Assembly: GCA_015061905.1 (NCBI GenBank)
Contig: SUVQ01000007.1
Coordinates: 62,001 to 126,000, forward strand
Reading direction: 5' to 3'
Source: Verrucomicrobiota bacterium
GTDB taxonomy: Bacteria > Verrucomicrobiota > Verrucomicrobiia > Opitutales > UBA953
DNA length: 64,000 nt
Below the pieces are notes generated by a model that did not search any database, had not been told where the DNA came from, and worked only from the letters and a program-made list of their open reading frames with translations. This document shows, one piece after another, positions 11,377-41,521 of the stretch (positions are counted from its first letter, which is position 1; the number at the start of each line of letters is the position of its first letter). The position numbers and the translations under genes were made by a program.

Positions 11377-12585
11377 ATGAAACAGATCCTAAATAAACTC
11401 GCTGTCTCCTTTATTTTTGCGGGTGTTGCCGGCTCCGCTTCCGCCGCCGGTACCGCGCTTATTCCGCTTCCCGCCTTCGGAGAAGACGCAGGAATTCACG
11501 GTTTGCTGAACGCCTCCGTTGCCTATAACGACAATATTTACCTGTCGGATACAAACGAAGACGCGGACACGATCTTCACGATTTCTCCGGGCTTGGAATT
11601 TACCAACGGAGACGAAGCTCGCAGTAAATTTAGCCTTCGCTTCGTCGAAAACATCCTCTTCTACATGGATGAAACCGACAACAATCGCGCGCTCGAAAAT
11701 ATCGACTTTACGTTCACGCACGGCGGCGAAGGACAAAAACTCAAACTTACGGTTGCCGGCGGTTTCCACCACAACCAGAGTGCTTCTGCCCGTGATTCCT
11801 ACACGAAAGGCACGATGACGCGTTCTTACAACTACTACGGGAAGGGCATTCTTTCCTACAAAGTCGGCGAAAAAACTTCACTTCGTTCCGGGCTCAACTG
11901 GAGCGGCACGACTTATCAGAACAGCGAAGCAAAATACTACTACAACGACCGTCAGCAATACTCCATTCCGCTGTATCTCTACTACGCGGTAACGGAGAAG
12001 CTTAACGCCGGTCTTTCCGCCGAATACCGCTACGTCGACCTCGCCACGAGCGGACGCAATCGCGATCTCGGTAAAACGGCGGGAACGGAGCAGGTTTGGT
12101 TCTTCGGTCTTTCCGCAGAAGGTAATGCTTGGGAAAAGCTTTCCCTCAACGGGCGTATCGGTGTTACGACTTCCGATTACTCTGACCGCACAATCGACAA
12201 TCTCGACGGTCGCGACACGCTCGGTATGTCCATCACGGCGGATTATCAAGCCACGGAAAAACTTTCCACTGCGTTGACGCTCAATCGTGACTTCGAACTC
12301 GGCTCTGCCGGTGAAGGCATCATCGCGACGGGTGCAACGCTTTCCGCCAACTATCGTATCGACGATTTCTGGTCCGCGAACGCGAGCCTCGGCTATCGTC
12401 TCGACGATTATCAGTCATCCGCTCGTGAAGACGACATTTACAAAATGACGGTCGGCGCATCTTACGCCATCAACGAATGGGCGAGTGCTTACGCGAATTA
12501 CTCTCTCGCGATTGACGAATCCAATCAGGAAGGCTCGGACTATACGAATAACATCGTTACGGTCGGTATCTCCCTCCGCTACTAA
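11377..12585 (+). CDS. Outer-membrane beta-barrel protein of the polysaccharide export cluster (BBP2-like)
   Basis: A 402-residue protein with a signal peptide (MKQILNKL, hydrophobic core, GSASA|AGTALI). It is followed by alternating polar/aromatic strands over the whole length, ending in NNIVTVGISLRY. The terminal aromatic residue is the usual BAM recognition end. The N-terminal NASVAYNDNIYLSDTNEDAD and the repeated strand pattern resemble the putative barrel porins found beside Wza/Wzc genes in exosortase-type exopolysaccharide loci. Its likely role is as an outer-membrane conduit or accessory for polysaccharide. It precedes the Wza-like lipoprotein by 66 bases on the same strand. Barrel class is clear from the pattern; the specific function is inferred from neighbours. 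Confidence 0.8.
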   Translation: MKQILNKLAVSFIFAGVAGSASAAGTALIPLPAFGEDAGIHGLLNASVAYNDNIYLSDTNEDADTIFTISPGLEFTNGDEARSKFSLRFVENILFYMDETDNNRALENIDFTFTHGGEGQKLKLTVAGGFHHNQSASARDSYTKGTMTRSYNYYGKGILSYKVGEKTSLRSGLNWSGTTYQNSEAKYYYNDRQQYSIPLYLYYAVTEKLNAGLSAEYRYVDLATSGRNRDLGKTAGTEQVWFFGLSAEGNAWEKLSLNGRIGVTTSDYSDRTIDNLDGRDTLGMSITADYQATEKLSTALTLNRDFELGSAGEGIIATGATLSANYRIDDFWSANASLGYRLDDYQSSAREDDIYKMTVGASYAINEWASAYANYSLAIDESNQEGSDYTNNIVTVGISLRY

Positions 12586-12651
12586 GCGGAAGGGAGTTAC
12601 GACATTCGATTTTTTTCGTGTGTTGAAGCTATTAAGCAACCTCAATCTGAA

Positions 12652-13290
12652 ATGAAATCAAATGTTTTGATTCGAGCCGCGATGTTTCTTGCGGCTCTTT
12701 TCTTTTGCCTCGGTTTTTCCGCTTGCCGGACTGCTCAGCCGCACGCCGGTTATCCGGCATCGAATTTGAGCGAAGACGGTCCGGGAACGCAGGATTACCG
12801 TATCCGTCCGTTGGATACATTGCGTTTCGAGATGTATGCGGAGCCGGATAATCGCGGAGAATATCGCGTTTCGAAGGAAGGCAATATTACGCTGAACTTC
12901 ATCGGGCAGGTAACGGTCGCCGGAAAGACGCTTAGCGAGCTCAAGGATTCTATTGAAAAACGCTATCGCGACGAAGGATTTTATACGAATCCTCAGGTTA
13001 CGTTGACCGTTATTGCGTATGCCGAGCGGCGTATTTACGTCAGCGGATTCGTTGCAAGTCCCGGTCCGGTGCTGATTCCGATTGAAGAAGAGCTGACACT
13101 GGGAAAAGCGATTGACGCTGCGCGCGGTGTGCTTCCCCGCGGATCCCGCACGAGTGTGAAAGTTACCCGTTCCCGAGATGGTGTTATCCAAACTTGGGAA
13201 GTGGATTTGAAGGCGATTCAGGAAGGCTACGAACCGGATTTCCCGCTCGAAGAGGGAGACCGCGTGTATGTCCCGGATAGTGCGATTTAA
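12652..13290 (+). CDS. Polysaccharide export lipoprotein, Wza family (poly_export and SLBB domains)
   Basis: This 212-residue protein begins with a lipoprotein signal peptide whose lipidated cysteine is probably Cys25 (LGFSAC). The poly_export domain follows: DYRIRPLDTLRF, then EYRVSKEGNITLNFIGQV. One SLBB domain follows (IYVSGFVASPGPVLIPIEE to PLEEGDRVYVPDSAI). It is much shorter than E. coli Wza (379 residues), lacking the second SLBB repeats and the C-terminal amphipathic helix that forms the outer-membrane pore. A separate barrel is therefore probably needed, and one is encoded just upstream. The Wzc-like kinase follows 37 bases downstream. Together they form the export part of an exopolysaccharide pathway. 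Confidence 0.9.
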   Translation: MKSNVLIRAAMFLAALFFCLGFSACRTAQPHAGYPASNLSEDGPGTQDYRIRPLDTLRFEMYAEPDNRGEYRVSKEGNITLNFIGQVTVAGKTLSELKDSIEKRYRDEGFYTNPQVTLTVIAYAERRIYVSGFVASPGPVLIPIEEELTLGKAIDAARGVLPRGSRTSVKVTRSRDGVIQTWEVDLKAIQEGYEPDFPLEEGDRVYVPDSAI

Positions 13291-13327
13291 TCGTTGATTC
13301 GGAATAACTGACTAAATTTTTTCTCCA

Positions 13328-15589
13328 ATGGCGAATTTAAATGAAAACGAAGTCGTAACGGAAAATGCGCCTCGCGCATCGTCGGGTTACGGCTACGGTT
13401 ATAATAACTACGGAGGCTACGGAGCCGGCTACGGCGAATCGGCGAGCTTTTCCGATATGATGCAAACGCGAACGCTTTCCGATTGGATTGCGATGTTCCG
13501 GGAACGCATTTGGTATTTGATTTTGTCCGTTTTCGTCGTCGTTACGGGAACGCTCATTTATACGTATAATGTTGTTCCGGAATATACGGCTTCCGCGCGT
13601 TTGCGCGTTTTGAAAAATGCGGTTCAGGCGGCTCCGGGAAGCGGCGCGAATACGACTTCCCTGGATGCGATTTCCGGACAGGAAGACTTTCAGACGCAAC
13701 TTGAAATCATGCGTTCGGGCACGATTGTTAAACGTGTTCAATCGCGCCTGACATCGCCGGAGCTGACGGAAGTCGTTCGTCCGTATCAGGGCGGGAACGT
13801 TTTTTCCGGTCCGCTGACGCCGACGGAGGTTATTGCAAAGCACCGCAATGTCGTTCCTCAGAAAGCGACGTTTATTGCGTTCGTCGAATATACGCACCGC
13901 CGTCCGGAAGTTGCCGAAAAGTTGGCAAATTATTTCGCGGAAGAAATTCAGAAATATAATTCCGAAGACCGTGCGAATCTGACCAGTCCGGTTATTGAAA
14001 CGACGCGTGTTCAGATTGAGCAAATGGAGCACACGCTTGCTCAGCAACGTGAAGAACGAAATATGCTCATCAAGAATGAGCGTTTGCTTACAACGGAAAT
14101 GGGAACGGCGAACGCGGAACTTGCCAGTGTTATTTCCGTGCGCGATACGGAGCGCAAGAATTACGAAGATTTGCTTGCGATTCGTAATGAAATTCAAAAG
14201 ACCAAAGATGCCGGACTTTCGTTGTTGTCTCAGCCTTCGATTACGAGCAATCAATTGGTCGCGACCTTGCTTCCCCGCGTGGCGGATCTGCGTATTTCGA
14301 TTACTGGGTTGCTTGAAAAATACGGGAAGAGCCACCCGACTCTTATCGCGGAAACGCAAAAGTTGGAGCAGGCGGAGGCGGAGCTCGCCGAAGCCGTGAA
14401 AAAAGCGGAAGCGGAATTTGATTCGAACTTTGTCGCGGCAAAGCGTCGCTATGAATCGGCACAAAAGCGCGCGGAGGAAAAAGAAGTTGAGTTGGTGCGC
14501 CTGCGTGATGCCATTTCGCAACTCACGGCTTTGGATAAGAAAATTCTTTTGAACGAAGAATTGCTCCAGCGTCTGAAGTTTAATTTGGAAGATTTGAAAA
14601 TGCGGGTCATCGGCTCCGTTTCGTCGATTGTCAGTATTCTTGACCCGGCGGTGGTTCCGACGCGCGCTTCCAACAAAAACTTTGTTCTCAATGCTATTTT
14701 CGGTGTCGTTGCCGGGATCGCAATCGGTGCCGGTGTCATCGTTCTGCTCTCGTTCTTTGATGATCGCATCAAATCGACCCGCGACATCGAAAGCTTCCTC
14801 GGGATTCCGCTTTTGGGAACCATTACGCGCCTGAACCACGTTAAATCTGCCGTGGACAAAGCCTGCATCGTTTCCAACGGAAAAGATCGCGGAGCGACGG
14901 AAGCATTTCGTGCAATCTATTCGGCGCTGAAAATCGGGGAGCAATCCGGGAACGCAAAGGTTTTTCTGGTTACTTCGACGATGCCTTCCGAAGGGAAAAC
15001 TTTTGTTTCGACAAACCTTGCTCAAACCTATGCCGCGCACGGGGAACGCGTGTTGGTGCTTGATGCCGACTTGCGCCTGCCGAACGTCGGCAACTCGCTG
15101 GGCTTGTCCAAAGATGAACGCGGATTGACGCGCTACATGGAAGGAACGATGTCTTTGGACGAGGCAATTATTCACGATGTTCGTCCTAATTTTGACGTGT
15201 TGCAGGTTGGTGCGTTCTGCAAAAATCCGACGCAGGTTATCAATAGCGAAAAGTTCCGCGAAATGCTTGAAGAGCTCAAGAAAAGCTACGCGCGCATCTT
15301 TATTGACACTCCGCCGATCGGTGCCGTTTCCGACGTGCTGAACTTGCTTCCCCTGTGCGACGGCGTTGTTTACACCGTGCGCTTCAATACGGTTCAGCGC
15401 ACGATGATTAAGAACAATCTCCATCGCATTCAGGAATCCAAGCTTCCGATTTTCGGTGCCGTGATGAATCAAATGGTTCGTGAAACGGCTCGCTACTACG
15501 TTAGCTCGGGGCAGTATGGTATGTATTCTAAGTATTACCATTCCGCCCAAGCGAAAGAAGTTGAAGTGAAAATCAGCAAAGACGCGTAG
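13328..15589 (+). CDS. Wzc-like polysaccharide copolymerase and tyrosine autokinase
   Basis: This 753-residue inner-membrane protein controls exopolysaccharide chain assembly through a Wzz domain and a cytoplasmic BY-kinase. The N-terminus is Gly/Tyr-rich (SSGYGYGYNNYGGYGAGYG). A first membrane segment is near residue 65 and a second near residue 455, with a long coiled-coil periplasmic region between them. The kinase has Walker A in TMPSEGKTF (near 553), Walker A' in VLVLDADLRLP, Walker B in IFIDTPP, and a C-terminal tyrosine cluster YYVSSGQYGMYSKYYHS. It follows the Wza-like gene directly and is closed by a strong terminator. No glycosyltransferase, flippase or polymerase lies nearby, so the sugar-building genes must be elsewhere. 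Confidence 0.93.
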   Translation: MANLNENEVVTENAPRASSGYGYGYNNYGGYGAGYGESASFSDMMQTRTLSDWIAMFRERIWYLILSVFVVVTGTLIYTYNVVPEYTASARLRVLKNAVQAAPGSGANTTSLDAISGQEDFQTQLEIMRSGTIVKRVQSRLTSPELTEVVRPYQGGNVFSGPLTPTEVIAKHRNVVPQKATFIAFVEYTHRRPEVAEKLANYFAEEIQKYNSEDRANLTSPVIETTRVQIEQMEHTLAQQREERNMLIKNERLLTTEMGTANAELASVISVRDTERKNYEDLLAIRNEIQKTKDAGLSLLSQPSITSNQLVATLLPRVADLRISITGLLEKYGKSHPTLIAETQKLEQAEAELAEAVKKAEAEFDSNFVAAKRRYESAQKRAEEKEVELVRLRDAISQLTALDKKILLNEELLQRLKFNLEDLKMRVIGSVSSIVSILDPAVVPTRASNKNFVLNAIFGVVAGIAIGAGVIVLLSFFDDRIKSTRDIESFLGIPLLGTITRLNHVKSAVDKACIVSNGKDRGATEAFRAIYSALKIGEQSGNAKVFLVTSTMPSEGKTFVSTNLAQTYAAHGERVLVLDADLRLPNVGNSLGLSKDERGLTRYMEGTMSLDEAIIHDVRPNFDVLQVGAFCKNPTQVINSEKFREMLEELKKSYARIFIDTPPIGAVSDVLNLLPLCDGVVYTVRFNTVQRTMIKNNLHRIQESKLPIFGAVMNQMVRETARYYVSSGQYGMYSKYYHSAQAKEVEVKISKDA

Positions 15590-18502: not shown

Positions 18503-18775
18503 TCGGGATTGCCATTCTTGTCGCTTCCGACTGTGAGAAAAGACTTTTTTTTTCGCGCGAAGCCGCCAAACCGAGAAATTTTTAGGAACCGCGAATCAAC
18601 ACGAATTTTCACGAATGATTTTAACGCAAAAAAGGAATCAGGGTCTTTGCGAAAATCTGTTTTATCCGTGGGAAAAATAAACCGCAAAAAAACTTTGTGC
18701 CTTTGCGTTTTGGCGCGAAATTTTTGAACTTTAGATTGAGAGCGATTTTGCTTCGCACGGGAACGTTATGTTTGT
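18503..18775 (+). repeat. Composite intergenic repeat between tsf and nuoJ
   Basis: No gene is seen in 18431-18887. The segment carries repeat blocks in order: TTTTCGCGCGAAGCCGCCAA; AGGAACCGCGAATCAACACG with AATTTTCACGAATG; AAAACTTTGTGCCTTTGCG; then GAGAGCGATTTTGCTTCGCACGGGAACGTTATG. Copies in the same order recur behind exbD, PEP-CTERM genes, sdhB and usp. Short reading frames across it are not credible genes. Confidence 0.75.
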
Positions 18776-18887
18776 TGGACGCGGGCGAGCTTATAGAGAA
18801 ACCGCCGGGGCGGGTTACGTTTCCGCCTTTTTTAAAACGCTTTTTTGCTTTCGCTTGTCTCGTGAAAGGTTTACAGTTTTCCCACTT

Positions 18888-19445
18888 ATGGTTGATACTT
18901 TGTTCTACCTTTTTGCTACACTGACTTTGGTAAGTGCTCTGTTGGTCGTTTTGAACCGCAAGCCCGTTAACAGCGTGGTTGCGATGATTGTTACGATTGT
19001 CGGCGTGGCGGCAAATCTGTTTCTGCTGGACGCGCCGTTTTTGGCGACTTTGCTGATAATGGTTTACGCCGGCGCGGTTATCGTGCTGTTTCTCTTTGTT
19101 ATTATGCTCATGGATCCGGACGTTCCCGCGTTGAAGCGCGGCTGGTTCGGCTCTGCGCTCGGCGGAGTGGTTTTCTTTGCGCTTTGCGCGGCGGGAACGG
19201 TTTGGCTGTTCGGGTTTTCCGGAGCGGTATCCGCGATTGACGCGAAGACAGCTTCGAACGTTTCTCCGTTACTTGCGTATTCGAATGAGGCGACGGCGTT
19301 CGGTTGGCCGCTGTTCACGAAATATGTCGTGCTTGTGGAGGCTTCGGCGTTGCTGCTTCTCGCGGCGATGGTTGCCGTGTTTATGTTGCATTCACGTCGC
19401 CGCGGGAACGCGGAATCTTGTGAATGTGCGTGCAAAAACAAATAA
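18888..19445 (+). CDS. nuoJ: NADH-quinone oxidoreductase subunit J
   Basis: NuoJ is a small core subunit of the membrane arm of respiratory complex I. The 185-residue protein has five membrane segments and contains the conserved AGAVIVLFLFVIMLMD in the third, which carries the pi-bulge of the family. The start was set at the ATG giving MVDTLFYLFA. An in-frame start 40 codons upstream would add a non-membrane leader read from repeat DNA, so it was rejected. The nuoA-I genes are not upstream, where there is a repeat and then tsf, so this is a split operon of the last five subunits. Confidence 0.95.
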   Translation: MVDTLFYLFATLTLVSALLVVLNRKPVNSVVAMIVTIVGVAANLFLLDAPFLATLLIMVYAGAVIVLFLFVIMLMDPDVPALKRGWFGSALGGVVFFALCAAGTVWLFGFSGAVSAIDAKTASNVSPLLAYSNEATAFGWPLFTKYVVLVEASALLLLAAMVAVFMLHSRRRGNAESCECACKNK

Positions 19446-19463
19446 ATTTTCGGGAGAAAAACG

Positions 19464-19763
19464 ATGACTTTATCTCATTTTCTGATTCTTGCCGGATTGC
19501 TTTTCGGCGTAGGGCTGACGGGGGCGGTGGTTCGCCGCAATATTCTCGTCATTTATATGTCGTTGGAAATGATGCTGACGGCGGCGATGCTTGCGTTGGT
19601 CGCGTTTTCCAAATTCTGTAATTTGATGGACGGAGCGGTGTTCTGCTTCTTCATCATTACGATTGCGGCGGCGGAAGTGGCGGTCGGGCTTGCGCTCATC
19701 GTTTCTCTTTTCCGCAAGCGTAAAACGGTGGCACTTGACGATTTGCGCTCCCTGAAAAACTAA
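19464..19763 (+). CDS. nuoK: NADH-quinone oxidoreductase subunit K
   Basis: A 99-residue, three-helix subunit of complex I that takes part in proton pumping. It contains the conserved LVIYMSLEMMLTAAM segment with the key membrane glutamate, and IITIAAAEVAVGLALI with the second. Length is as in other bacteria. A ribosome site (GGGAG) lies about eight bases before the ATG. It sits 18 bases after nuoJ and 13 before nuoL. Confidence 0.96.
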   Translation: MTLSHFLILAGLLFGVGLTGAVVRRNILVIYMSLEMMLTAAMLALVAFSKFCNLMDGAVFCFFIITIAAAEVAVGLALIVSLFRKRKTVALDDLRSLKN

Positions 19764-19776
19764 ATTTTCTCTCAAC

Positions 19777-21693
19777 ATGGATAACGAAACCTTACTTCGC
19801 GTGATTTTGTTGACGCCGCTGGTGGCGGCTGTCGTTTCCGCGTTTTTCTTTCGGCGTTCCCGCGTGGTTGCTCCGGCGATTTCGGTAACGGCGGCGGGCG
19901 TAATACTGTTTGCGTCGTTGGCGCTTTTGCTCGGGTTGGACCCGGCGAATCCGACGGCGAGTGCGACGCTTCCGGGGTTTGCGCTCGGCGGTTTTACCGA
20001 GCTTGAGACCATCGGGCTTTCGATTGACAAAAACGGGGCGGCGATGCTTTTCGTCGTAACTTTTGTCGCGTTTTGGATTCACGTTTTTTCCGTCGGCTAC
20101 ATGGACGACGACAAGGCACGCGGACGCTTTTTCGCGGGCTTGAGCGTGTTCATGTTTTCGATTCTGGGCATCATTCTCGCGAACAATCTTTTCATGACGT
20201 TTATTTTCTGGGAACTTGTCGGGTTCAGTTCCTACATGCTGATCGCGCATTATTACGATACGGATTATGCGGCGATGGCGTCGAAGAAAGCGTTTATCGC
20301 GAATCGCGTCGGCGACCTTGGTTTCCTCGTCGGAATTATTCTTTGCTACAAACAATACGGCACGACCAACTTTGCCGAACTCGGCGAACTGATTAAAAAC
20401 GGCGAAATGACGTTCACGTCAATCGGTTTGTTGCTGATGTGCGGTTTTCTCGGAAAATCCGCTCAGTTCCCCTTGCATGTTTGGTTGACGGACGCGATGG
20501 CGGGTCCGACGCCGGTTTCCGCGCTCATTCACGCGGCGACGATGGTTGCGGCGGGCGTGTTTTTCATGGTGCGTATTTTCTTCCTGCTCACGCCGGAAGT
20601 GCTGACGACGATGCTTTGGCTTTGCGCGGGCATGGCGGCTCTCGGCGGGCTTTGCGCGCTCGGGCAAACGGATATTAAAAAATCGCTTGCGTATTCGACG
20701 CTTTCGCACCTCGGTTTCATGGGGGCGGCAATCGGTTTGGGGCTTCCCGAAATCGCGTTGTTGCACATGGCGATGCACGCGTTTTTCAAGGCGACTTTGT
20801 TCCTTTGCTCCGGTTCGGTTATTCATGCCTGCCATCACGAGCAGGATATGACGAAGATGGGCGGTTTGTTGAAAAAAATGCCGATTACGGCGGCGGCGTT
20901 TGTGGTCGCCGGGCTTTCGATTTGCGCGTTCCCGTGGTTTGCGGGTTGGTATTCGAAGGATATGATTTTGTCCGGCGCGTATTTGGAGGGAAATATTCCG
21001 GCGTTTGTGGCGTTGGTGATTGCCGCAATCGGCACGACGCTTTACACGGGGCGCATGTTCGCGATGGTTTTCCTCGGGAACGCGCACGGACACGGAGCGG
21101 CGCATGCGAAGGAATCTTCGGCTTGGATGACGCTCCCGCTCGTCGTTTTGGGCGTAATCTTTTCACTCGGAGCCGGCTGGTTCCTTGCGGGAACGAACGG
21201 GATTCCGTGGCTTGACGGAAAAATGAACGCGTTGTTCCCGGCGTCGGCGACGGAAGTTTTTGCACACGGCTATCATGATTTGCACGAAAAGCTTGCGGAT
21301 GCGGGCTTGGTCGCGCCGATGTTCATTCTCGGTGTAGTTATTTTGGTCGTCGGGCTTGGGCTTGCAGTGGTGTTTTACCGCACTTCGACGGGAGAAGATA
21401 AATTGCGGGAACATTCACCCGTTTTGTATAAGGCGTTGGAATATCGCTACATGGACGCATTTTACGGTTGGTATATTGAAAAAGTTCAGCAACGCGTGGC
21501 GATGTTTGTTGCCATGCTTGATACGGCTTTAATCAATATGCTGGCGATGCGCGGCGTGATCGGCGGCGTTCCCGCGATTCTCGGCTCGGTTGCCCGCCGC
21601 TATATTCAGAACGGCAGCGGCGGCGTTCCCGTTTTTTGGATTGCTTTCGGGGCGCTTGTGATTGCGGCGGCGCTTGTCTGCGGTGTTCTTTAA
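19777..21693 (+). CDS. nuoL: NADH-quinone oxidoreductase subunit L
   Basis: NuoL is an antiporter-like proton-pumping subunit at the distal end of complex I. The 638-residue protein has about 16 membrane segments. It contains FWELVGFSSYMLIAHY with the key glutamate, GKSAQFPLHVWLTDAMAGPTPVSALIHAATMV, and a lysine-bearing DIKKSLAYSTLSHLGFM. The C-terminal lateral helix region (EYRYMDAFYGWYIEKVQ) and anchoring helix are present. The operon order J-K-L-M-N is canonical. Confidence 0.97.
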   Translation: MDNETLLRVILLTPLVAAVVSAFFFRRSRVVAPAISVTAAGVILFASLALLLGLDPANPTASATLPGFALGGFTELETIGLSIDKNGAAMLFVVTFVAFWIHVFSVGYMDDDKARGRFFAGLSVFMFSILGIILANNLFMTFIFWELVGFSSYMLIAHYYDTDYAAMASKKAFIANRVGDLGFLVGIILCYKQYGTTNFAELGELIKNGEMTFTSIGLLLMCGFLGKSAQFPLHVWLTDAMAGPTPVSALIHAATMVAAGVFFMVRIFFLLTPEVLTTMLWLCAGMAALGGLCALGQTDIKKSLAYSTLSHLGFMGAAIGLGLPEIALLHMAMHAFFKATLFLCSGSVIHACHHEQDMTKMGGLLKKMPITAAAFVVAGLSICAFPWFAGWYSKDMILSGAYLEGNIPAFVALVIAAIGTTLYTGRMFAMVFLGNAHGHGAAHAKESSAWMTLPLVVLGVIFSLGAGWFLAGTNGIPWLDGKMNALFPASATEVFAHGYHDLHEKLADAGLVAPMFILGVVILVVGLGLAVVFYRTSTGEDKLREHSPVLYKALEYRYMDAFYGWYIEKVQQRVAMFVAMLDTALINMLAMRGVIGGVPAILGSVARRYIQNGSGGVPVFWIAFGALVIAAALVCGVL

Positions 21694-21715
21694 TTTTTAG
21701 AGGAAGGTTTTCAAA

Positions 21716-23629
21716 ATGAGCTGTGCTTCCACTCTCTTGCAAGTTGCCGTGGCGACGCCGTTGGTTGCGGCGTTGGCTTTGGCGTTTTCAAAATGGCTTC
21801 CGTGCGGTGCTAAGAAGGCGATTGCGGGCGTCGGGTTTGTCGTTCCCGTGTTGATTGCCGTAACGTTGCTTTGCGCGTTCCCGTGTGCGGAAAAGATTAG
21901 CGGTTACGCGTTTTATTCTTTCTGCGAAATGCTGGGCGTTCCCTCGCTCGGTATTTGGTTGCAATTCGGATTAAACGGCATCTCGCTTCCGTTGTTTTTG
22001 ATGGCGGCGGTCGTCGGCGTGGCGGCGGGCTTGCGAGCACTTTCAACGAAAAATGTTGAGCGTAGCGGTCTTTACTACGCGGTAACGCTCGTGATGTTCG
22101 GCGGCGTTCTCGGTGTGTTTTCCGCGATTGATGTATTCTCGTTTTACATTTTCCACGAGTTCGCGTTGATTCCGACCTTTGTCGCGATCCTGCTTTGGGG
22201 AGGCTACGGGCGTAAAACAACGGCGATTACGATGGCGATTTACCTCACGCTCGGCGCGATGATTTCTCTTGCCGGTTTGTTGGCTCTTTATTTTGCGGGC
22301 GCGGGCATCGGAGAATACGGATTCAGTTTCTTGGGAATTGCGCAGGCGGTTGCGAACGGCATGGTGCTCAACGGCGATGTGTCCGTGATTTTTGCGCTTC
22401 TGCTTTTCGGTTTCGGAATTTTGGTCTCGCTGTTCCCGTTCCACTCGTGGGCACCGGATACTTACGCGGTGGCTCCGACCCCGATTTCGATGCTTCATGC
22501 GGGCGTTTTGAAAAAATTCGGGCTCTACGGGCTGATTCAGCTTGGCGCGCTTGCGCTCCCGCTCGGCTTGGCGGATTGGCAAAACTGGATTATTTGGCTC
22601 GCGCTCGGAAATATCGTGCTCATCGGTTTGATTACGATGACGCAGAAGGACCTGAAGCAAATGGTGGCATACAGTTCCGTGATGCACATGGGACCGATTT
22701 TCCTCGGAATCGCGGCGTTCGCCATTTCCGGCGGAGATGTCGCCGGGCTTGGGGGCGCGGTTGTGCTGATGTTTGCGCACGGACTTTCGGTTGCGCTTTT
22801 GTTCCATCTCGGACAATCCGTTTACGACCGCACGGGAACGTATGACATGACGAAAATGGGCGGCTTGACGGCGAAGGTTCCGGTGCTGGCGGCGTTTTTC
22901 GTCGCGGCGACGATGGCGAGTATCGGTTTGCCGGGCTTCGCGAACTTCTGGGGCGAGCTCACGATTTTCACGTCGCTCGCGGATATTCAGCCGGCTTGGC
23001 TTCTCGGTGCGATTGTGCTTTCCATCGTGATTTCCGCGATTTACGGACTGCGAGCCGTGGCGAAAATTTTCTACGGAAAAAATACCGGAGCCGCTCTTTC
23101 GGACGAAGCCTTTGAAAATGTGCGCGACATCACGGTCTCCGAACGCGTTCCCGCGCTGATTCTTTTCGCGGCGCTGGTGGTTGTCGGATTTGTGCCGTCG
23201 CTGATTACGAAAAATATTGATGCGGCACTGAAAGCGGATTTCGCTCCGGCGGCAAAAGTATTTTGCGCGGGAAATTGCGGAGCGGAAGCGACGGATGAGG
23301 ACATCATCATACTCGACGGACCGCTTCCGGTTTTGCCTGCCGTTCCCGCCGATAATTGCGAAAGCTGCGGGGAAGGGAAAGAGTTGATTCTTGCAAAGAA
23401 CATCACGGTTACGGTTTCCGGAGCCGTGGAGGAAGAAGGCGATTTCGTTTTGTCTGCGGAGGACGCGACGCTGCTGAAGGCATTGGAGTTGGCAAAGGCG
23501 GATTCCGAAGCGACGTTTGCGGTGGTGCTTCGCGTAACGGCTCGCATTCCCGTGGATTTGGACGAGCTGAGAAACGGAGACGTCGAGGACGTTCCGCTTG
23601 AGGACGGCGATAAAATTTCTGTCGAATAA
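21716..23629 (+). CDS. nuoM: NADH-quinone oxidoreductase subunit M with a C-terminal SLBB-like soluble tail
   Basis: NuoM is a second antiporter-like proton-pumping subunit of complex I. The membrane part (to about residue 500) has the family motifs IFHEFALIPTFVAILLWGG, FPFHSWAPDTYAVAPTPISM and DLKQMVAYSSVMHMG. Typical NuoM ends about here at 490-520 residues, but this protein has 637. The extra 135 residues are hydrophilic. They contain four cysteines in two pairs (Cys517/Cys521 and Cys548/Cys551), then about 78 residues resembling an SLBB beta-grasp domain (VTVSGAVEEEGDFVLS to PLEDGDKISVE). The window's own Wza-like lipoprotein has the same layout (VSGFV to PLEEGDRVYV). The tail is in frame with no stop and ends cleanly before nuoN, so it is not a sequencing run-on. 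Its function is unknown. Confidence 0.93.
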   Translation: MSCASTLLQVAVATPLVAALALAFSKWLPCGAKKAIAGVGFVVPVLIAVTLLCAFPCAEKISGYAFYSFCEMLGVPSLGIWLQFGLNGISLPLFLMAAVVGVAAGLRALSTKNVERSGLYYAVTLVMFGGVLGVFSAIDVFSFYIFHEFALIPTFVAILLWGGYGRKTTAITMAIYLTLGAMISLAGLLALYFAGAGIGEYGFSFLGIAQAVANGMVLNGDVSVIFALLLFGFGILVSLFPFHSWAPDTYAVAPTPISMLHAGVLKKFGLYGLIQLGALALPLGLADWQNWIIWLALGNIVLIGLITMTQKDLKQMVAYSSVMHMGPIFLGIAAFAISGGDVAGLGGAVVLMFAHGLSVALLFHLGQSVYDRTGTYDMTKMGGLTAKVPVLAAFFVAATMASIGLPGFANFWGELTIFTSLADIQPAWLLGAIVLSIVISAIYGLRAVAKIFYGKNTGAALSDEAFENVRDITVSERVPALILFAALVVVGFVPSLITKNIDAALKADFAPAAKVFCAGNCGAEATDEDIIILDGPLPVLPAVPADNCESCGEGKELILAKNITVTVSGAVEEEGDFVLSAEDATLLKALELAKADSEATFAVVLRVTARIPVDLDELRNGDVEDVPLEDGDKISVE

Positions 23630-23658
23630 CGAGAATTTTTTTTCTGGAGATTTTTTTA

Positions 23659-25188
23659 ATGAATTCCGTAATTGAATTTTATAAAGCCTGGCAACCCGGC
23701 ACGGATACGCTTCACATGTGCTTGCCGGAGATTGTGCTCGGTGTGTTGGCTCTTCTCGCTCTGGTTTTTGACGTGGCGTGCAAATGTTGCGGAGCGAAGC
23801 GTGCGGCGCGCGGATTTATCAATGCCGCGTTGATCGCGCTGGTGATTTGTCTCGTCGGCGGGGCGTTCCCGCAGTCGTGGGGCGCGGAACCGAAAACGAT
23901 TTTCGGCTATTCGCTTTTCGGGCAAATTTCGACACCGCTGTTTGTCGCGTGCGCATTTTTGGCAATCAATCTTTCCGGAATTGTGCGTTCCCGCGAAAGC
24001 AATTCCGAAATTTCGGCACCGGCAACGACGCACTTAATTTTGATTGCAACGGCGGCGGCTTCGCTCTTGCTGAAGGCGACAAATTTCGTGGCGTTTTTCG
24101 TTTTGCTTGAAACGCTGACGGTTTCGCTTTACGCGCTTGTCGGTTCAAACCGCAACAGCCCGTATTCGCTTGAAGCCGGTGTGAAATATCTGATTGCCGG
24201 CGGCGTTTCCGGCGGCTTGATGCTTTTCGGGATTGTTTTGCTTTACGGCGGCGCGGCGATGGCGGGAACGGCGGCTACGGCTCTTGCCGATCCGCTTGGC
24301 TATGGCACGATTGCATCTTTCCTTTTGCAAAATCCGGACAATTTGGTTGGCATCGTCGGTGCGGGGTTGGTGCTCGCCGGAGTGATGTTTAAGCTCGGCG
24401 TGTTCCCGATGCAGTTTTGGATTCCGGACGTTTATCAGGGCGCGCCGACACACGTTACGTTTTTCTTGGCGACGGTCTCGAAGGCGACGGGCTTTTTCCT
24501 GATGGCGATTTTGCTCTCGGTTTTCGGCGGAATTTGGGAAACGCTTCTGCCCGTGCTTTTGGCGTGCACGTTGATTTCCGTTGTTTACGCGAACGTAACG
24601 GCTCTCGGGCAACGCAACGTGAAGCGTTTGCTGGGGCTTTCCGGTGTCTCGCACGCCGGCTATCTGATGCTCGGCTTGTTGGGTGCGGTTGCCGTTGCGC
24701 GTGAAGCGTCCGATCCGCAGTGGATTGTTTTGATGCTTGTGCTCGTTGTTGCGTATTTGCTTGTTTACATTTTGACGGTGTATCCGATTTTCTCGGTGAT
24801 GACGCGTATGCCGCAGTCGGATGATGCTCTGCAAAGCCTCGACGATTACGAAGGTTTGTCGAAGAACAATCCGCTTTTTGCGGGAACGCTGGCTTTCGCT
24901 TTGGCTTCGCTTGCGGGGATCCCGCCGGCGGTCGGGTTTATTGCAAAGCTCGGCATTTTGTTTGTGCTTTTCCAAGCCGGATTCTACGGCACGATTGCTG
25001 TGATGCTGGTATGTGTGGTAGTCAGTATTTACTACTATTTCGGCTGGTTCCGTGCGGCGTTTTCTGCGGACGAATCCGGCAAGGGAAAGGCGTATTTGCC
25101 GACGGGAACGTGCGCACGCATTGTGCTGATAGGCTTTTCCGCGCTGATGATTTTGGCATCTTTGGCATACTGGGATGTCATTTCCTAA
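23659..25188 (+). CDS. nuoN: NADH-quinone oxidoreductase subunit N
   Basis: NuoN is the third antiporter-like subunit of complex I. The 509 residues contain LLETLTVSLYALVGSNRNSPYSLEAGVKYLIAG (split here by key residues Glu and Lys of the channel), MFKLGVFPMQFWIPDVYQGAP, and NVKRLLGLSGVSHAGYLMLG. About 14 membrane segments are visible. A Cys pair (CKCCGAKR) sits in the first cytoplasmic loop. It is the last gene of the nuoJ-N operon and is followed by a hairpin terminator. Confidence 0.96.
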   Translation: MNSVIEFYKAWQPGTDTLHMCLPEIVLGVLALLALVFDVACKCCGAKRAARGFINAALIALVICLVGGAFPQSWGAEPKTIFGYSLFGQISTPLFVACAFLAINLSGIVRSRESNSEISAPATTHLILIATAAASLLLKATNFVAFFVLLETLTVSLYALVGSNRNSPYSLEAGVKYLIAGGVSGGLMLFGIVLLYGGAAMAGTAATALADPLGYGTIASFLLQNPDNLVGIVGAGLVLAGVMFKLGVFPMQFWIPDVYQGAPTHVTFFLATVSKATGFFLMAILLSVFGGIWETLLPVLLACTLISVVYANVTALGQRNVKRLLGLSGVSHAGYLMLGLLGAVAVAREASDPQWIVLMLVLVVAYLLVYILTVYPIFSVMTRMPQSDDALQSLDDYEGLSKNNPLFAGTLAFALASLAGIPPAVGFIAKLGILFVLFQAGFYGTIAVMLVCVVVSIYYYFGWFRAAFSADESGKGKAYLPTGTCARIVLIGFSALMILASLAYWDVIS

Positions 25189-37789: not shown

Positions 37790-38638
37790 ATGAGCGAAAA
37801 ATGCTGCTGCCGCGTGCCGTCGGTTGTAAAAAAATACCTGATGGCAGTTACCGGTCTGGTTCTCGTGCTGTTCCTCATTGTCCACGTGGTGGGCAATTTG
37901 CAGATGTTCCAGGCTCCCGAAAAGATTAATACCTATGCGCATTTGTTGCATAGCCTGCCGCCGGTTGCCCTGTGGGGTTTCCGCTTGTTTATGCTGTTGT
38001 GCTTTGTGGTGCACTTCGGCTTGGCGATTCATCTGAAGATGGAAAATCTCGCGGCGCGCGGACCGGAAAAATACGCGGCGAATGCGACGCGCTATGCGGC
38101 GTGGTCGGCTCGCGCGATGATTCTTTCCGGGATTGTTCTCCTCGCTTTTGTCGTTTTCCATATTTTGCAATTCACGGTGTTCAAGGAAGCCGGGCTTTGC
38201 GGCATGGCGGCGTATGAAGGCGCGACGACGATTACGGCCGTCGGCGGCGAAGGCATTTTCGGCTACCTCGGGCAGCACGGGAACGCGGAATCGACGCTCT
38301 CTTACAAGGTTTTTGATGTTTACCAAATGGTTTACAATGCGTTCGCGAATCCGTGGATTTCGCTCATTTATGTGGTGAGCATGATTTGCCTTTTCTCGCA
38401 CCTTTCGCACGGCGTGCACTCGATGTTCCAGTCCGTCGGTCTGCGCAACGAAAAAATGCGCCCGATTTTCCGTAGCATTGCGGTGGTTTACTGTATTGCG
38501 GTTTGCGGCGGCTTGATTGCCGTTCCCGCCGGCGTGCTTACCGGAATCATTAAGCCGAACCCGAATACGACGGCTCCGATTGTCGAAGTTTCCTGCCCGT
38601 GCTGCAGCGCGGATGCTTGCGACGTTCCCGCGAAATAA
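37790..38638 (+). CDS. sdhC: Succinate dehydrogenase / fumarate reductase cytochrome b subunit
   Basis: The 282-residue membrane anchor of the b558 type (Bacillus/Wolinella class) has five membrane segments and the haem-ligand histidines, for example in LIVHVVGNLQMF, CFVVHFGLAIHL, LAFVVFHILQF and LFSHLSHGVHSMFQ. It binds quinone and holds SdhAB to the membrane. Two features are odd. The N-terminus is MSEKCCCRVPS, with three consecutive cysteines, and the tail after the last helix ends VSCPCCSADACDVPAK, with four more. These are not typical of the family and could form a metal site or membrane-proximal disulfides. Order sdhC-A-B, with 27 bases to sdhA. Confidence 0.94.
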   Translation: MSEKCCCRVPSVVKKYLMAVTGLVLVLFLIVHVVGNLQMFQAPEKINTYAHLLHSLPPVALWGFRLFMLLCFVVHFGLAIHLKMENLAARGPEKYAANATRYAAWSARAMILSGIVLLAFVVFHILQFTVFKEAGLCGMAAYEGATTITAVGGEGIFGYLGQHGNAESTLSYKVFDVYQMVYNAFANPWISLIYVVSMICLFSHLSHGVHSMFQSVGLRNEKMRPIFRSIAVVYCIAVCGGLIAVPAGVLTGIIKPNPNTTAPIVEVSCPCCSADACDVPAK

Positions 38639-38665
38639 CCCCGAATTTTAAGGAGAATTTATAAA

Positions 38666-40678
38666 ATGAGTTCCAACGTTACTCCCGAAGTTAAATTTGC
38701 TTCGAAATGGCAGGCGGTTTCGGATCCGAAAGAATTTGCCGCAAAGATTTCTCAAATTCCGGACGGACCGATTGCCGGAAAATGGGGCAAGCGTAAGTTT
38801 GAATACAAGCTCGTCAATCCCGCGAATCGCCGCAAATACCATGTTATCGTGGTCGGTTCCGGTCTCGCCGGCGGAGCAGCCGCCGCATCGCTCGGGGAAA
38901 TGGGCTTTAACGTCAGCTGCTTCTGCTATCAGGACAGCCCGCGCCGCGCGCACTCGATTGCCGCTCAGGGCGGTATCAACGCCGCGAAAAATTACCAGAA
39001 CGACGGCGACTCCGTTTATCGTCTTTTCTACGATACGATTAAGGGCGGCGACTTCCGCGCCCGCGAAGGCAACGTTTACCGCTTGGCGGAAGTTTCCAAC
39101 GCGATTATCGACCAGTGTGTAGCGCAAGGCGTTCCGTTCGCCCGCGAATACGGAGGAACGCTCGCGAACCGCTCCTTCGGCGGTGCGCAGGTTTCCCGCA
39201 CGTTCTACGCCCGCGGTCAAACCGGTCAGCAACTTCTCCTCGGCGCGTATTCCGCGCTCTCGAAGCAAATCGGTCTCGGCACGGTCAAAATGTATAACCG
39301 CCACGAAATGATGGACCTCGTCGTCGTCAACGGCGAAGCGAAGGGCATCGTTACCCGCAACATGGTTACGGGCGAAGTGAAATCGTGGAACGCAGATTGC
39401 GTCGTGCTCTGCACGGGCGGCTACGGGAACGTGTTTTATCTTTCGACGAATGCGCAGGGGTGCAATGTTACGGCGGCTTTCCGCGCCTACAAACACGGCG
39501 CAGGGTTCGCGAATCCGTGCTACACGCAAATTCACCCGACCTGCATTCCGGTTCACGGCGAACAGCAGTCCAAGCTCACGCTCATGTCGGAATCCCTCCG
39601 CAATGACGGTCGCGTTTGGGTGCCGAAATCCCGCGAACAGGCAAAACTGATTCGCGAAGGCAAACTCAACCCGAACGACGTTAAGGACGAAGATCGCGAC
39701 TACTATCTGGAACGCAAGTATCCGAGCTTCGGGAACCTTGCTCCGCGTGATATTTCCTCCCGCGCCGCGAAGGAAGCTTGCGACGACGGTCGCGGCGTGG
39801 CTCCGACCGGTTTCGGTGTGTTCCTCGACTTCCGCGATGCGATCAACCGCCTCGGCGAAGGCGTCATTCGCGACCGTTACGGAAATCTGTTCGATATGTA
39901 TGAAAACATTACGGGCGTGAATCCGTATAAGAACCCGATGCAGATTTATCCGGCGTCTCACTACACGATGGGCGGTCTCTGGGTGGACTACAATTTGATG
40001 TCCACGATCCCGGGCTTGTTTGTCGGCGGCGAAGCCAACTTCTCCGACCACGGGGCAAACCGCCTCGGCGCTTCCGCGCTCATGCAGGGGCTTTCCGACG
40101 GTTACTTCGTGCTTCCGGCGGCGATTCCGGACTACCTCGCGAAATGCGGTCTCAAGGGTGCTCCGAAGAAGGAAGATCATCCGGAATACGCGGCGGCGGA
40201 AACCGCTGTTCGCGAACGCATCGAAAAGCTGATGGCGGTCAAGGGCGACAAATCTCCCCGCTACTTCCACCAGAAACTCGGACACATCATCTGGGAAAAG
40301 TGCGGCATGGCGCGCACGAAGGAAGGTCTCACCGAAGCTATTGCCGAAATCAAAACGCTTCGCGAAGACTTTTGGAAAAACGTTCGCGTCGTCGGCGATA
40401 AAGATACGCTCAATATCGAGCTCGAACGCGCGGCTCGCGTGGCGGACTTCCTCGAATTTGCCGAACTCCTTTGCCTTGACGCACGGGAACGCGACGAATC
40501 TTGCGGCGGACACTTCCGCTCGGAATACGCGACCGATGAAGGCGAAGCGCAACGCGTGGACGAAAAATTCCACCACGTCGGCGTTTGGGAATTCCAGGGC
40601 GACGGCAAGGAACCCGTTCGCGTTCAGGAACCGCTCGTTTACGAAAACGTTCACCTCGCAACGCGCTCGTATAAATAA
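38666..40678 (+). CDS. sdhA: Succinate dehydrogenase / fumarate reductase flavoprotein subunit
   Basis: This 670-residue subunit oxidises succinate (or reduces fumarate) with covalent FAD. It has the Rossmann start [20 protein letters not shown], the flavinylation histidine in [17 protein letters not shown], the active-site arginine region [15 protein letters not shown], and [13 protein letters not shown]. Length fits the Bacillus/Bacteroidetes type that pairs with a five-helix cytochrome b. The ribosome site AAGGAG lies about ten bases before the ATG. The direction of the reaction in the cell cannot be told from sequence. Confidence 0.97.
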
Positions 40679-40681
40679 GAG

Positions 40682-40713
40682 TGCTTAAAGTTTAGAGCTT
40701 AACGCTTAAAGAG
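40682..40713 (+). repeat. GCTTAAA heptamer repeat, copy 2 (between sdhA and sdhB)
   Basis: GCTTAAAGTTTAGAGCTTAA continues as CGCTTAAAGAG inside the operon, so this small repeat does not end transcription. It pairs weakly with itself through the AGCTT cores. Confidence 0.6.
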
Positions 40714-40729
40714 AGATAAGGAATAAATC

Positions 40730-41521
40730 ATGTCCGAAGAAAAAACGATTTCACTCACGCTCAAGGTTTGGCGCCAAAAAAGCGGCTCCGCTGACGGTCA
40801 TTTCGAAACTTACAAGGTTTCCGACGTTTCCACGGGATCGTCCTTCCTTGAAATGCTCGACATTCTCAATGAAGACCTCGTCGCCCAAGGCAAAGAACCG
40901 ATCGCGTTCGACCACGACTGCCGCGAAGGCATTTGCGGTATGTGCTCGATGACGATTAACGGTATGCCGCACGGTCCGCTTCCGGGCGTTACGACCTGCC
41001 AGCTCCACATGCGCCACTTCAAAGACGGCGAAACCGTTACGATTGAGCCGTTCCGCGCAAAGCCGTTCCCGGTTATCCGCGACCTCATCGTCGACCGCAC
41101 CGCGTTTGACAAAATTATCCAGGCGGGCGGCTTCGTTTCCGTGCGCACGGGTTCTGCAATCGACGCGAACATCATGCCGATTCCGAAGGAAGTCGCCGAT
41201 ACGGCGATGGACGCTGCGGAATGCATCGGTTGCGGTGCTTGCGTTGCGGCGTGTAAAAACGCTTCCGCAATGCTCTTCGTTTCCTCGAAGGTTACGCAGC
41301 TTAACTCGCTCCCGCAGGGCAAGCCCGAAAAGGACAAACGCGTGCTCGCAATGGTCAAGGCAATGGACGACGCCGGATTCGGCAACTGCTCCAACCTCGG
41401 CGAATGCCAGGCGGTTTGCCCGAAGGGACAAACGCTCGATTTCATCGCCAAGATGAATCGCGATTACGCTGTCGCTTCGGTCAAGAAACTCTTTAAGACC
41501 ACCGGAAAGAGAAAAGCGTAA
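40730..41521 (+). CDS. sdhB: Succinate dehydrogenase / fumarate reductase iron-sulfur subunit
   Basis: The 263-residue subunit passes electrons from FAD to the quinone site. The [2Fe-2S] ligands are in [14 protein letters not shown] plus a later cysteine (TTCQLH). The first ferredoxin motif is [13 protein letters not shown], and the last cysteines lie in [16 protein letters not shown], giving the [4Fe-4S] and [3Fe-4S] sites. Length and motif order match the class with the b558 anchor. It is the last gene of sdhCAB, followed by a heptamer repeat and a terminator. Confidence 0.97.

Follow-up and report, generated by a model that had tools for sequence, protein, structure and literature searches.

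A putative SLBB-derived C-terminal domain on the NuoM of a few uncultured gut Opitutales

Bacterial complex I is usually regarded as scarcely more than 14 core subunits, and the known fold of NuoM has 14 helices. NDUFS4, NDUFS6 and NDUFA12 are accessory subunits that we take to belong to the hydrophilic arm. They are shared by the complex I of Paracoccus denitrificans and that of mitochondria (PMC11522691). NuoM of E. coli is 509 residues long (PMC8357420). SLBB domains occur in NuoF (Nqo1) of complex I itself and in Wza-type (OPX) export proteins (PF22461/PF10531), and an sGG motif around the second conserved glycine is typical of the SLBB clade that unites Nqo1 with export proteins (PMC1796856). 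In mitochondrial complex I, NDUFB10 and other CX9C accessory subunits form a soluble module with cysteines that sits on the outer side of ND4 (PMC8762328).

The window analysed here, i.e., the whole 64,000-nucleotide stretch of DNA, encodes a NuoM that resembles ordinary NuoM/ND4 by profile (TIGR01972) over residues 1-506 and in its position between nuoL and nuoN. It differs in being about 130 residues longer, with a CxxC-containing linker and an SLBB-derived domain placed after the last helix.

The NuoM gene and its C-terminal tail

The features to which we refer are as follows (positions in the window; all on the forward strand).

21716-23629, + strand: NuoM open reading frame, 637 aa, a single open frame
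21716-23209, + strand: NuoM core, residues 1-498, with 14 predicted membrane helices (from TIGR01972, helices and loop charges)
21923-21925, + strand: Cys70, located in the TMH2-3 loop that is predicted to be periplasmic; by alignment, invariant in the five tail-bearing species
23210-23257, + strand: conserved segment after the last helix, residues 499-514 (KNIDxxLxxDFAPAA)
23258-23389, + strand: linker, residues 515-558, acidic and proline-rich, variable in length and sequence; its dN/dS exceeds those of the core and the SLBB part in the closest pairs
23264-23278, + strand: first cysteine pair, Cys517/Cys521, not conserved
23357-23368, + strand: Cys548/Cys551, the second cysteine pair; this CxxC is invariant across the five species
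23390-23626, + strand: SLBB-derived domain by sequence similarity, residues 559-637 (79 aa), under purifying selection
13033-13272, + strand: residues 128-207, the SLBB stretch of the Wza-like protein encoded in the window (gene 12652-13290); a related domain for comparison that does not belong to complex I

The core is that of a NuoM. Residues 8-506 match TIGR01972 with 327.1 bits, above the 263.8-bit cut-off, and residues 137-440 match Proton_antipo_M. A hydropathy profile shows 14 helices, of which the last spans about 480-498; three weak peaks at 64-82, 200-218 and 530-548 were discounted by judgement, in keeping with the known 14-helix fold. The gene lies in a head-to-tail run of nuoJ, nuoK, nuoL, nuoM and nuoN (18768-25188). 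The same genome encodes NuoF and NuoH elsewhere, which makes a complete NADH-type complex I likely. Complex I genes are spread over several loci in the genus, and cytochrome bd was found in all eight genus genomes.

The tail comprises 139 residues (499-637; 23210-23626) in frame with the core and carries a net charge of -19; a reading made from the sequence only had put the extension past the last helix at about 135 residues, which is borne out. An assembly error or frameshift can be ruled out as its source, since the same tail is present in five species.

Kinship, distribution and selection of the tail domain

The sequence-only reading also placed an SLBB-like domain at this C-terminus, and the similarity proved to be better than chance and conserved in relatives. 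Thus, the tail shares 26 of 80 positions (33%) with the window's Wza-like protein, which itself matches Poly_export and SLBB_2, at a BLASTP E-value of 3e-6; the alignment scores 71, some ten standard deviations over the mean of 25.6 (SD 4.5) for shuffled sequences, none of 2000 being as good. Four tails aligned by hhalign with eight Wza-type SLBB domains give a probability of 97.5% (E = 8e-12) over 72 of 79 columns, so that, by both methods, similarity to the SLBB superfamily spans the whole tail domain. Pfam SLBB_2 aligns over its full length to the tails with 12.2 to 21.9 bits, below its gathering score of 27 bits (E = 0.013 for the window's tail; two homologous tails reach 1.9e-4 and 5.3e-4). 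By inspection, the sGG motif is absent from the domain, the sequence past the helix being LELAKADSEATF. Because of the sub-threshold SLBB_2 score and the missing sGG motif, we use the name "SLBB-derived". AlphaFold models built from a shallow alignment are unreliable, with a mean pLDDT of 40 for the tail alone and 35 for full-length NuoM; their predicted order is E-E-H-E-H, in what may be a beta-grasp fold. The tail profile gave chance-level matches only among PDB sequences, and PF02563 (Poly_export) has no match in NuoM or the tails.

Besides the NuoM fusions, the tail profile has six matches in 372 Opitutales genomes: five measure about 220 aa and resemble export proteins, and the sixth is a 578-aa frame that shows features of such proteins. 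Direct descent of the tail from the window's Wza-like protein is not supported; export proteins of another Opitutales family score higher against the tail profile.

As judged from sequence, the tail domain is SLBB-derived and of the polysaccharide-export (Wza) type, an ancestry that we consider established at this level. It aligns end to end with the SLBB domain of the OPX proteins and shares with them a predicted periplasmic location, but it is a single SLBB with neither Poly_export, signal peptide nor sGG, and is fixed to a proton-pumping membrane protein. The SLBB of NuoF belongs to the same superfamily and the same enzyme, but differs in superfamily branch, subunit and side of the membrane. 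A kinship with the NuoF SLBB is not supported: the tail profile reaches only 15.8% over 30 columns in hhalign against the NuoF SLBB of the genus, compared with the values given above for the Wza type, and NuoF lies across the membrane from the predicted position of the tail.

An exopolysaccharide locus at 11377-15589 of the window encodes an EpsL-like outer-membrane protein, a short one-SLBB Wza-like protein and a Wzc-like chain-length kinase. It resembles the described pairing of class 3 export protein and beta-barrel (PMC9603273).

Among the eight Candidatus Spyradosoma group genomes (uncultured gut Opitutales), five encode the tail, namely the window's genome and those of four further species represented by MAGs: three from ruminant gut (sheep, goat and water deer) and Candidatus Spyradosoma merdigallinarum. 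The three tail-less members of the genus have a NuoM of about 517-541 aa with a short low-complexity end. Searches of 372 Opitutales genomes and of 387 genomes sampled across Verrucomicrobiota yielded no NuoM-SLBB fusion outside the group; a pattern scan of 84,980 species, which detects only relatives retaining short conserved patterns, gave no other fusion. Long NuoM-like frames do occur elsewhere in the phylum. Thirteen such regions were read and contained no SLBB; their extra length is mostly open frame upstream, and the full-length matches among them have low-complexity ends of at most 58 residues past the last NuoM-like residue. That no SLBB was known on NuoM, as previously stated, agrees with a search of open-access papers, none of which names the two together.

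In a tree of NuoM cores, a branch with 100/100 support sets the tail-bearing proteins apart, and a tail-less sister group adjoins them. A single gain is the simplest history and is strongly suggested. The nuoJKLMN genes are together in the tail-bearing genomes, and in the tail-less sisters nuoMN are on contigs other than that of nuoL. Upstream of nuoJ, genomes differ even where their NuoM proteins are 98% identical; tsf and rpsB adjoin nuoJ in genome G000 and were not found within 13 kb of nuoJ in genome G007.

The SLBB part is maintained by purifying selection, while the linker is looser. In the two closest species pairs, omega is 0.000 and 0.012 for the SLBB part, 0.039 and 0.019 for the core, and 0.10 and 0.11 for the linker; comparisons of more distant pairs give rough values only, with a dS that is high given how short these stretches are. 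The 79 residues of the SLBB part align without gaps in five species, with 46 of 79 invariant. We regard the tail as a true domain fusion with a narrow phylogenetic range.

Membrane side and possible role of the tail

Two lines of evidence place the tail. Lysine and arginine residues are distributed over alternate NuoM loops as 20 inside and 1 outside, with both protein ends predicted outside. In published structures, the TMH2-3 hairpin of bacterial ND4 is periplasmic (PMC11522691), and the extension of TMH14 in NuoM of E. coli and T. thermophilus occupies the ND4 site bound by NDUFB10 in mammals (PMC8762328). The loop charges and these structures therefore strongly suggest that the tail lies, almost certainly, in the periplasm. 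A periplasmic tail would provide no NuoF-like electron input, which argues against a role in NADH oxidation.

The best explanation overall, although in our opinion about equally balanced between right and wrong, is a clade-specific Wza-type SLBB fusion acting as a periplasmic docking or bracing module of NuoM. In all likelihood the ancestor of the five-species clade acquired one Wza-type SLBB domain at the NuoM C-terminus, joined through the acidic linker with its CxxC motif, and TMH14 very probably delivers the tail into the periplasm. There it would most likely serve as a fixed accessory domain for protein-protein docking or bracing on the periplasmic side of the distal membrane arm, the place taken by NDUFB10 in the mitochondrial enzyme, or, in a variant of the same explanation, as a dock for an envelope partner; it would take no part in NADH oxidation. 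The absence of sGG may mildly favour a structural over a ligand-binding role. NDUFB10-like subunits offer an analogy only, being not homologous to the tail but separate, helical and disulfide-linked. Several points weigh against the proposal: the AlphaFold models are unreliable, a long and rapidly changing linker would suit a flexible tether no less than a fixed brace, and the tail-less sister species manage without the tail. The earlier suggestion of a new accessory module of complex I is thus retained as the best reading, although its functional part is conjectural.

A broader possibility, which we consider speculative and on balance unlikely, is that the covalently attached periplasmic SLBB couples complex I to the envelope (peptidoglycan or exopolysaccharide export), or that it regulates the pump by way of a ligand bound on the outer side. 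If so, the SLBB would, along with the new cysteine motifs of NuoJ, NuoM and NuoN, belong to a remodelled complex I membrane arm. A tail that ties the pump to the envelope would represent a new kind of connection; one that only braces the membrane arm would still be a clean gain of an accessory module through domain fusion. In either case, an antiporter-like subunit with a conserved soluble domain on its outer face would be a bacterial counterpart to the outer-face accessory subunits of mitochondria, and, with a single gain, the tail-less sister species would serve as natural controls.

Alternative explanations and the cysteines of the clade

The domain may instead have kept the carbohydrate-related function of the export proteins to which it is related, tying complex I in the periplasm to peptidoglycan or to the machinery for exopolysaccharide export. 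This is possible, if rather improbable. SLBB domains of export proteins and of ComEA are predicted to contact the sugars of polysaccharide and peptidoglycan (PMC1796856, PMC9603273), the tail is of Wza type and predicted to be periplasmic, its flexible linker would be suitable for a tether, and a class-3-like export locus is found some 9 kb upstream. However, the motif sGG was not seen on inspection, the tail has a single SLBB whereas Wza works as an oligomer, and the tail-less sister G006 has a Wza-like protein too, so that export needs no tail.

A second alternative is a metal or thiol site: joined by Cys70 or by a partner, the invariant CxxC could bind zinc, iron or another metal, or form a redox-sensitive thiol pair. 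We consider this doubtful. The four cysteines reported earlier (517, 521, 548 and 551) are all present in the window's sequence, but of the two pairs only the second is conserved in all five species, within an otherwise variable linker. The first takes the form CxxxC in two species and CxxC in another two, and Ca. S. merdigallinarum lacks it. This makes the earlier idea of a cluster held by both pairs unlikely to be general. A four-cysteine metal site such as rubredoxin or a zinc ribbon was rejected, with two of four cysteines conserved and no significant match of the linker to these or other metal-domain families. Nor is the number of cysteines exceptional (four per 139 residues; P = 0.08 for the window). 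In favour of a site stand the constancy of Cys548/Cys551 and of Cys70, the latter also present in one tail-less sister (G001), and the gain of cysteine motifs in NuoJ and NuoN of the clade; by loop charge, however, the NuoJ and NuoN motifs are on the other side of the membrane from the NuoM tail. Because DsbB, VKOR and the DsbA-like family PF13462 were not found in the eight genus genomes (controls were detected; the search covered PF13462 rather than the DsbA family PF01323), a dedicated disulfide system may be missing from the genus, and the tail thiols could stay reduced.

That the tail is a chance fusion, tolerated on NuoM and functionless, would suit its narrow distribution and the existence of tail-less sister species. 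It is very unlikely in view of the purifying selection on the SLBB part, its gap-free and largely invariant alignment, and the CxxC preserved inside a variable linker. Finally, a duplicate of complex I's own NuoF SLBB serving electron input is scarcely credible: the tail of S. merdigallinarum does align with the NuoF SLBB (score 53, 0 of 2000 shuffles as good), as expected within one superfamily, but the profile comparison strongly favours the Wza type and the tail is predicted on the opposite membrane side.

Cysteine-rich stretches were also observed in other respiratory proteins. The end of NuoJ (19395-19442) reads SCECACKNK in the window and SCGCACKNK, SCGCCCKK or GGCCCGCCGQK in other tail-bearing species; it is absent in the tail-less sisters and, since it is next to RRR, probably cytoplasmic. 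NuoN of the clade has a CxxC in loop 1 (residues 41-44, 23779-23790; CKCC, CKSC or CGSC) that the tail-less sisters lack, and NuoN of S. merdigallinarum has an additional cysteine-rich insert (CCRGGASCRCGGKGEHAGASCGCG). NuoK and NuoL show no comparable cysteine gain in the clade. A succinate dehydrogenase/fumarate reductase operon lies at 37790-41521 (cytochrome b558 family, flavoprotein and iron-sulfur subunits); its cytochrome b subunit, another respiratory membrane protein with a cysteine-rich end, starts with MSEKCCCRVPS.
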